DNA of 64,000 nucleotides, taken from NCBI GenBank assembly GCA_021840255.1, contig JAKBYX010000001.1:186001-250000 (forward strand). The letters run 5' to 3'. A program made the position numbers and the translations under genes. This document shows, in pieces, positions 10,390-13,438 of this stretch. Within the stretch, counting starts at the first letter, position 1, and every line of letters starts with the position of its first letter. The notes below the pieces were generated by a model. That model was not told the DNA's origin. It was given only the letters and a program-made list of their open reading frames with translations, and ran no database searches. Source of the stretch: Nitrospirota bacterium. GTDB lineage: Bacteria; Nitrospirota; Thermodesulfovibrionia; Thermodesulfovibrionales; JdFR-88.

Positions 10390-12189
10390 ATGCTGAGGAC
10401 GGGATGCGGCACCGTAAGCGAGGCCCATATAGGTCAGGAAGAGAAAAAACAAAAACTCCGGTTTTCCGGCTGGGTATACAGGCGCAGGGACCATGGCGGG
10501 CTCATATTCATAGACTTGCGGGACAGAAGCGGTATCCTGCAGGTTGTTTTTAACCCTGATGTGGCCCCTGAGGCACACAGCCTGGCCCATGGACTGAGGG
10601 CTGAATACGTCATTGAGGTTTCGGGCAAACTGGGCAAGAGACCCGAAGGCACCCAAAACCCGGGGTTGCCGACCGGGGGCGTGGAGCTATATGCCGACAA
10701 CCTCACAATACTGAACGAATCCGCGCCGCTTCCTTTCAGCCTCGAAGACCCGGACACGTCGGAGGCCCTGAAGCTGCGCTACAGGTACCTGGACCTGAGG
10801 AGCCCCCAGATGCAGAAAAATCTGTTCTTAAGGCACAGGGCGGTGAAGGCCATCCGGGACTACCTGGATTCCGAGGGTTTCCTGGAGATAGAGACCCCGA
10901 TGCTGACAAAAAGCACCCCGGAGGGGGCCAGAGACTATCTTGTTCCAAGCAGGGTGAACCCTGGCTTCTTTTATGCTCTGCCCCAGTCCCCGCAGCTGTT
11001 CAAACAGATACTGATGGTCTCGGGGTATGAGAGATATTTCCAGGTGGCCCGCTGTTTCAGGGACGAGGACTTGAGAGCCGACAGGCAGCCGGAATTCACC
11101 CAGATCGATATGGAGACCTCGTTTATGGACTCCGAGGATATAATCAGGATAACGGAGGTGATGCTGGCCCGTGCCTTCAAGGAGACTATCGGCGTGGAGC
11201 TTCCCTTGCCTTTCCCGAGGCTCTGTTATGAAGAGGCCATGGGACGCTTCGGCTCGGATAAGCCTGATATGCGTTTCGGTCTGGAGCTTGCCGACATGGC
11301 AGGGCCCGCCCGGAAAAGCTCCTTCAAGGTCTTTCTGGACGCCCTTGACAAGGGCGGCAGGGTTATGGGCCTGAGGGGCCTCGGGATGGCCGGCCTGTCC
11401 AGGAAAGAGGTGGACGACCTCACCAACTCCGTGAAAGAGATGGGCGCAAAGGGCCTTGCATGGATAAAGATCAGGAATGGTTTTGATTCCCCCATAGCCA
11501 AGTTTTTCCCAAAAGAAGCCATGGAGGAAATGGCGGCAAGCCTGCAGGCGCAGGAGGGCGACATGATGCTCTTCGTTGCGGACACCGAAAAAATCGTCCA
11601 AAACACGCTTGGAAGGCTGAGAATAGAACTGGGCAAAAAACTGGGGCTGATAGAAAACCAGTGGCGGCCTTTGTGGGTAGTGAATTTCCCCCTTCTGGAG
11701 TGGGATGATGAGGAAGAGCGGTTTGCCGCGGTGCACCACCCGTTTACTTCACCTGCCGATGCGGACGTGGAACGCATACTTTCCGGTGACATGAGTGATA
11801 AAGCTCTCCTTGCCTCCCTCAAATCAAAGTCGTATGACATAGTGCTCAACGGCTATGAGATAGGCGGCGGGTCCATCCGTATCCACAGGCAGGAAGTGCA
11901 AAGCAGGATGTTCGAGATGCTTGGCATATCAAGGGAGGACGCCGCAAAGAAATTCGGATTTCTCCTGGACGCCCTCCAGTTTGGCGCCCCGCCGCATGGC
12001 GGGCTGGCCCTTGGGCTGGACAGGCTCGTGATGCTGCTTTGCGGGGCGGAGTCCATAAGGGACGTTATAGCCTTTCCCAAGACCTCGAAGGCGTCTGACC
12101 TGATGAGCGGAGCGCCTTCGTCCGTGGAACAAAAACAGCTCAGGGAACTGCATATAAAGCTGGATATTCCGATGGAAGAGAACATCTGA
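10390..12189 (+). CDS. aspS: Aspartyl-tRNA synthetase
   Basis: Charges tRNA-Asp (and perhaps tRNA-Asn) with aspartate. At 599 residues it is the long bacterial type. It has an N-terminal OB-fold anticodon-binding domain ([21 protein letters not shown]), class II motif 2 ([20 protein letters not shown]), the bacterial GAD insertion in the middle, and motif 3 ([15 protein letters not shown]) near the end. Whether it is discriminating or non-discriminating cannot be decided here; no GatCAB genes are in the window. The start codon immediately follows the rluB stop. Confidence 0.96.
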
Positions 12190-12628: not shown

Positions 12629-13438
12629 TTACTTCTTCTTTACCTGCTTTGCGGCCTGGTCTATGCGCATCAACAGGGTTTGCTCAGGCAGCGCACCGAC
12701 CACCATCTCCCCGTCCGGAAGTATAAGCGTGGGAGTCCCCGTGATATTCAGTTTCTTCCCAAGAGCGATGTTCCTGTCTATCTCCGGGGCTTTGCAACCG
12801 GGCTTGGGGATAGGCTTGCCCTCTAGCGATTCCTCAAGGAGCTTTAACGAATGTGTGCATTCTATCTCCTGCGCCTTTTCCTTCGATCCCGGATGTATGG
12901 CAAGCGGGAAGAGTTTTATGTAAAAGGCGATGTCTTTTCTCTTGCTGACTATGTCCTTCATCACCTGATGAAGCCTCGCGCAGAAAGGTCAGACGGGGTC
13001 GTCGAAAACGATCACGCGGATGGGGGCATTCGCTTTACCAAGAATCAGGGCATCGCTTAAAGGTATCTTGGATACATCGACCTTGTTCAGCTGGGACATG
13101 CGCTCGCTGGTTATGTCCGCCTTGGTCTTTATATCTATTATGGAGCCCTGGATCAAATGCTTTTTGGCATAATCGACATAAATGACGCTCTTCTTGCCCA
13201 TGAACTCGAAAGTGACTTCCCACAGCCCGCCCACCTTGGACTTGGCAACGCCTAAAACCTTTATTGATGGATTGAAGGAACTCAGTATCCCCTGCGCCTC
13301 GGCTGGCTTAAGGGAATGGCAGGACTGGCAGTCTCCGCCGCACGCCCCGGTCGTTCCGGCAAAGCCGTACGAGCCCGTGGCAAGGATCAAAATGGTGAAT
13401 GCCGCCGCAATGAGAGAGATCAACTTTCGCATTACCAT
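12629..13438 (-). CDS. dsbC: DsbC-like thiol-disulfide isomerase, predicted selenoprotein (in-frame UGA = Sec150)
   Basis: Read through one in-frame TGA (12991-12989), this frame gives a complete 269-residue periplasmic disulfide isomerase. Residues 1-27 are a signal peptide. CQSCH (37-41) is a c-type haem-binding motif. Residues 45-130 match the DsbC N-terminal dimerisation region. The thioredoxin fold begins at about 138: VIVFDDPV-U150-PFC153-ARLHQ, where DsbC has its CxxC followed by a Leu-His. Then come a Cys pair (C194, C215) as in DsbC and the cis-Pro loop TGTP236. The frame is unbroken on both sides of the TGA, so a frameshift is not needed. Ordinary gene calling would split it into 12989-13438 and 12629-12964. 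A SECIS-like hairpin follows the UGA. The alternative is a point mutation of TGC/TGT to TGA. Confidence 0.82.
12956..12991 (-). promoter_or_regulatory. Bacterial SECIS-like hairpin after the UGA codon
   Basis: From the UGA (12991-12989), 22 nt lead to an apical loop AGGU (12966-12963). The loop is closed by a perfect 7-bp stem, CUUCAUC (12973-12967) with GAUGAAG (12962-12956). Bacterial SECIS elements lie in the coding region just downstream of the UGA, with a short stem and a G-U-containing loop; E. coli fdhF has AGGUCU. The distance and loop both fit. The element also encodes RLHQVMK, so its sequence is under protein constraint too. Confidence 0.7.

Follow-up and report, generated by a model that had tools for sequence, protein, structure and literature searches.

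A DsbC-type gene of Nitrospirota with a conserved in-frame UGA very probably encodes an exported selenoprotein

Thiol:disulfide interchange selenoproteins with a UxxC active site (PF13098; example WP_011366075.1) and DsbG-like selenoproteins, also with UxxC (NF041057), have been catalogued (PMC13188914), and thiol:disulfide interchange selenoproteins are listed for Geobacter and Syntrophus species (PMC1794560). In the open-access library searched, we found no paper on a selenocysteine (Sec)-containing DsbC in Nitrospirota. The gene described here lies in a 64 000-nucleotide stretch (the window) of a draft Nitrospirota genome (GCA_021840255.1, contig JAKBYX010000001.1; referred to as G000). With high confidence, we interpret it as encoding an exported thiol:disulfide isomerase/reductase of the DsbC type, with Sec in place of the attacking Cys and the UGA codon recoded by SelB together with a downstream SECIS hairpin.

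The gene is a 269-codon frame on the minus strand (window positions 13438–12629) that is interrupted solely by a TGA at 12991–12989 (U150) and ends in TAA. A first-pass annotation made from the sequence had described a frame intact over 269 codons bar one TGA, had placed this TGA where a DsbC-type CxxC has its first Cys, had pointed to a Cys pair at 194/215 and a cis-Pro in TGTP, and had expected standard annotation to give two genes. Translation with TGA read as U bears out the frame and the active-site position (U150-P-F-C153), the residues named are correct (C194/C215 and T235-P236) and ordinary ORF calling of the locus indeed yields two pieces of 149 and 111 aa. The features of the locus are as follows.

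12629–13438, minus strand: complete coding frame of the predicted seleno-DsbC, 269 aa with U150; TAA stop at 12631–12629.
13370–13432, minus strand: N-terminal signal-like hydrophobic segment MRKLISLIAAAFTILILATGS, from sequence, with a predicted helix at residues 3–19.
13316–13330, minus strand: codons of the CxxCH motif, C37-Q-S-C40-H41, from conservation in 98 homologues.
13109–13303, minus strand: DsbC_N-type dimerisation domain, approximately residues 46–110 (PF10411, E = 2.4e-10; DsbC is the best PDB match to the AlphaFold model).
12989–12991, minus strand: in-frame UGA, the putative Sec codon, which occupies the place of the first active-site Cys in U-P-F-C, from translation and 98 homologues.
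12956–12973, minus strand: putative SECIS hairpin CUUCAUC-AGGU-GAUGAAG, with the apical loop 22 nt past the UGA, from conservation, RNAalifold and folding.
12632–13048, minus strand: thioredoxin-fold catalytic domain, approximately residues 131–269, with U150/C153, cis-Pro P236 and the structural pair C194/C215, from Pfam, PDB sequence match, conservation and fold.

Translation probably begins at the ATG at 13432 (residue 3) and not at the first codon of the frame, since M3 is invariant in the homologue alignment and the homologues begin there. The signal-like N-terminus suggests that the protein is exported to the periplasm.

All 12 genomes searched in the family to which the source organism belongs carry the gene, and each of the 14 full-length homologues in them has exactly one TGA, at the codon for U150. 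The TGA is retained in homologues of ∼50–85% identity, in which the frame past it is also conserved. Among the close relatives, the named ones are metagenome assemblies of Nitrospirae. When the search was extended to the whole phylum, 252 of 396 genomes contained matches, and many of these had a single TGA. We assembled a wider set of 98 full-length copies, which were hand-picked (Nitrospirota and one Geobacter) and are not a random sample; the codon at the U150 position in this set is TGA in 62 copies, TGC in 20 and TGT in 16 (36 Cys codons) and nothing else. Residues C153, H157 and P236 are present in 98/98 copies and C194 and C215 in 97/98 each, in the Sec and Cys copies together, so that the UxxC/CxxC site (U or C at position 150 in 98/98) and the cis-Pro of the DsbC/DsbG family are found throughout. 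The first-pass annotation had proposed aligning homologues to see whether they carry Cys or UGA at this codon, and had held that TGC or TGT in relatives or a loss of conservation downstream would count against Sec. The alignment shows only the two proposed states, and the region 3′ of the TGA keeps the upstream frame and is strongly conserved. Relatives with TGC or TGT do exist, yet as the Cys homologues to be expected; they are not a sign of sequencing error in the window because all 14 full-length homologues in the family of the source organism have TGA.

The read-through protein matches the Pfam models Thioredoxin_2 (2e-17) and DsbC_N (2e-10) as well as DSBA-like models. Both PF10411 and PF13098 score above their cut-offs, giving the N-terminal dimerisation plus thioredoxin architecture of the DsbC/DsbG family, and the PF13098 score (63.7 bits against a cut-off of 27) occurs together with a UxxC site, the combination that marks the thiol:disulfide interchange selenoproteins. 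The predicted structure of the read-through protein (AlphaFold model) has a mean pLDDT of 90.9, and its top Foldseek match is E. coli DsbC (E = 4e-14). Whole-chain TM-scores are just ∼0.45–0.56, while chains of the catalytic domain alone reach ∼0.8 of the target, as expected for a hinged two-domain protein. The best PDB matches by sequence are also DsbC structures. In NCBIfam, the matches of 30 scanned family members were to DsbC, DsbG, thioredoxin and glutaredoxin models; with the protein of the window no model reached its cut-off, the DsbC equivalog NF008129 giving 70.7 bits, below its curated cut-off of 215. By analogy with the family, the protein would have isomerase activity.

The N-terminal CxxCH motif is nearly invariant in Sec and Cys copies alike (C37 in 96, C40 in 94 and H41 in 95 of the 98) and is also present in the Geobacter-type Cys homologues. 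It could be a haem c attachment site or an additional dithiol/redox motif. The motif lends some weight to an alternative in which the gene is a selenoprotein with another main function, such as a reductase for the CxxCH thiols of c-type cytochromes, a peroxidase or a selenium- or metal-handling protein, perhaps with haem on its CxxCH. Selenocysteine favours reduction, which would suit such a role, and no shared dsb or ccd partner gene stands next to the locus in the neighbourhoods examined in relatives, where the neighbours were a sensor kinase and response regulator, a sodium symporter and an HD-domain protein. Against this, the DsbC_N plus thioredoxin architecture and the DsbC fold match argue for DsbC-like work, and cytochrome maturation may itself be served by a DsbC. 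We therefore regard a different main function as possible but unlikely. A more specific proposal, that the proteins form an uncatalogued subfamily of exported DsbC-like selenoenzymes in which the CxxCH carries haem c or provides a second redox relay, appears to us distinctly doubtful; if it were true, Sec chemistry and haem or an extra dithiol would cooperate in cytochrome c maturation in Nitrospirota.

The conserved hairpin downstream of the UGA, which had gone unseen in the first-pass annotation, is the decisive comparative evidence for reading this codon as Sec. In the TGA copies, codons 6–11 downstream form CTTCA(T/C)C-loop-G(A/G)TGAAG, with a loop of NGGN in 60/62. All 7 bp are intact in 61/62 TGA copies, as against 1/36 among the Cys copies (Fisher P = 3e-24, with the sequences being related and not independent), and the RNAalifold consensus fold consists of this hairpin alone in the TGA copies and of nothing in the Cys copies. 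The constraint extends to synonymous positions: the Leu codon of the stem is CTT in 62/62 TGA copies versus 9 of 30 Leu codons in Cys copies, and the Lys codon is AAG in 62/62 versus 16/34. Codon entropy in Sec copies is 0.07 bits in the stem versus 1.19 elsewhere; in Cys copies the corresponding values are 0.99 and 1.27 bits. A compensatory T-A to C-G pair occurs in three copies (L050, L056 and L120), the 5′ change being silent for a His codon. Beyond the paired region, Sec copies prefer AAA at codon +5 (36 of 38 Lys codons) and AAG at codon +12 (44/46). The hairpin of the window, with 7 bp, a 4-nt loop (AGGU), a distance of 22 nt from the UGA and a folding energy of −8.3 kcal/mol, stays inside each of the four limits set by the bacterial SECIS model (PMC13188914), with a G among the first two positions of the loop. 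The case for a SECIS rests on the comparison, because a lone hairpin is not unusual: 6.4% of the TGAs in the 64-kb window pass a similar hairpin rule, and the single-sequence folding energy of the window hairpin is uninformative (z-score of −0.18). Its near-invariance across an order makes it a clean marker by which such genes can be found and re-annotated.

The same data bear on the reading in which the gene simply stops at the UGA, the functional forms being either two separate proteins of 149 and 111 aa or a truncated one. This would match the standard ORF calling exactly, and UGA recoding is incomplete, a figure given in PMC4513850 being 30–40% in vivo. However, the TGA would then divide the thioredoxin fold between U and its partner Cys plus cis-Pro, conservation continues past the TGA in the same frame as before it, and the hairpin is retained essentially only along with the TGA; we give this reading a very slight chance. 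In an incomplete draft, where single-base errors occur, one might suppose that the gene is an ordinary Cys-type DsbC gene and that its TGA reflects a mistake of sequencing or assembly, or the stop of a pseudogene, but this is refuted, to a probability close to nil, by the independent recurrence of the TGA at the same codon in the own-family and wider homologues, with TGC and TGT as the sole alternatives, and by the conserved frame and invariant C153, H157 and P236 beyond it.

For the Sec machinery, which the first-pass annotation had proposed to look for, the expectation was borne out in part: the source genome has selA (504 bits), selB (364 bits) and selD (354 bits), and a tRNA-Sec was not found in its 76%-complete assembly by Rfam, BLAST or a lineage-specific model built from eight relatives, nor near selB, selA or selD. 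The best Rfam tRNA-Sec match in the assembly (L011) was rejected as a tRNA-Ser. The selD gene (L048, G000:C10:54631–55554) carries an in-frame TGA of its own in SCAG-U-AAK, which we take to be the usual Sec site of that protein. A tRNA-Sec with a UCA anticodon was identified in 8 of 11 genomes searched (G001, G002, G007, G008, G010, G011, G025 and G163). It was likewise not found in one relative (G006) that carries the UGA gene and is listed as 100% complete. In G007, a transposase-like ORF stands within a few hundred bases of the tRNA-Sec, and drafts are prone to break at such places. Given this position and the 76% completeness of the G000 assembly, the missing tRNA-Sec in G000 is likely to be an assembly gap rather than a true absence. 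The same missing tRNA is the one point in favour of UGA being decoded as Trp or Cys by an altered code or a suppressor tRNA, which we consider to have next to no likelihood: TGA is the normal stop of aspS (12187–12189) and gcvH (16977) in the window, both named from our own reading of the translations, so that the genetic code is unchanged, the hairpins at these stops have at most 5 bp, selA, selB and selD are present, Cys is the sole alternative residue in homologues and the hairpin agrees with the SECIS model.

The reading as a Sec-containing disulfide isomerase, already put forward in the first-pass annotation, is thus the one to which the conserved TGA, the SECIS, selA/B/D, the Cys homologues and the predicted DsbC fold point. 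In this mechanism, SelB with Sec-tRNA would read the UGA as Sec through the coding-region SECIS, whose loop lies 22 nt downstream, so that Sec would be inserted at U150. The exported protein would presumably dimerise as DsbC does, Sec150 would attack disulfides and Cys153 would resolve the intermediate. The genome contains one CcdA/DsbD-TM-like (DsbD_TM) protein, and this membrane protein may maintain the reduced state. Acting on substrates, the enzyme would isomerise or reduce mispaired disulfides, possibly including those of cytochrome c precursors. The gene represents a well-supported, lineage-wide selenoprotein gene that standard ORF calling cuts in two.

Sec and Cys have been swapped repeatedly in the family. 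Mapped on a quickly built maximum-likelihood tree, the Sec/Cys state requires 16 parsimony changes, of which well-supported branches force at least six. Some genomes hold both forms: in G122 the Sec and Cys paralogues adjoin on the same strand (L128, G122:C15:32400–34600), and in G268 (L112) they are ∼4 kb apart. One Cys copy (TGT; L139:128–919) has a perfect SECIS hairpin, probably the fossil of a recent Sec-to-Cys change. Repeated switching, with both forms often in one genome and a fossil hairpin, provides a natural test set for the use of selenium by a disulfide isomerase.

Compared with known systems, the protein shares with E. coli DsbC the DsbC_N and thioredoxin domains, the active-site pair, the cis-Pro and a second structural Cys pair, and differs from it in having Sec for the first Cys, an extra N-terminal CxxCH and a score far under the DsbC equivalog cut-off. 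The SelD of the same genome relies on the same Sec machinery and serves as an internal positive control, although it is a cytosolic enzyme of selenium metabolism. The DsbG-like selenoprotein likewise has a UxxC thioredoxin fold, but the window protein matches its model (NF041057) at only 14.1 bits, below the curated cut-off of 190. With the thiol:disulfide interchange selenoproteins (WP_011366075.1) it has in common PF13098 as best Pfam match, UxxC and an interchange function. While Geobacter is listed for that type, all of the sampled Geobacter-family homologues of the window gene have Cys and not Sec; one match flagged for TGA (L170) was rejected as a Sec form, having Cys at its active site. 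By domain and motif it is plausible that the two groups are the same family, and we regard the Nitrospirota genes as a lineage-wide set of additional members of a catalogued selenoprotein type rather than as a new family.
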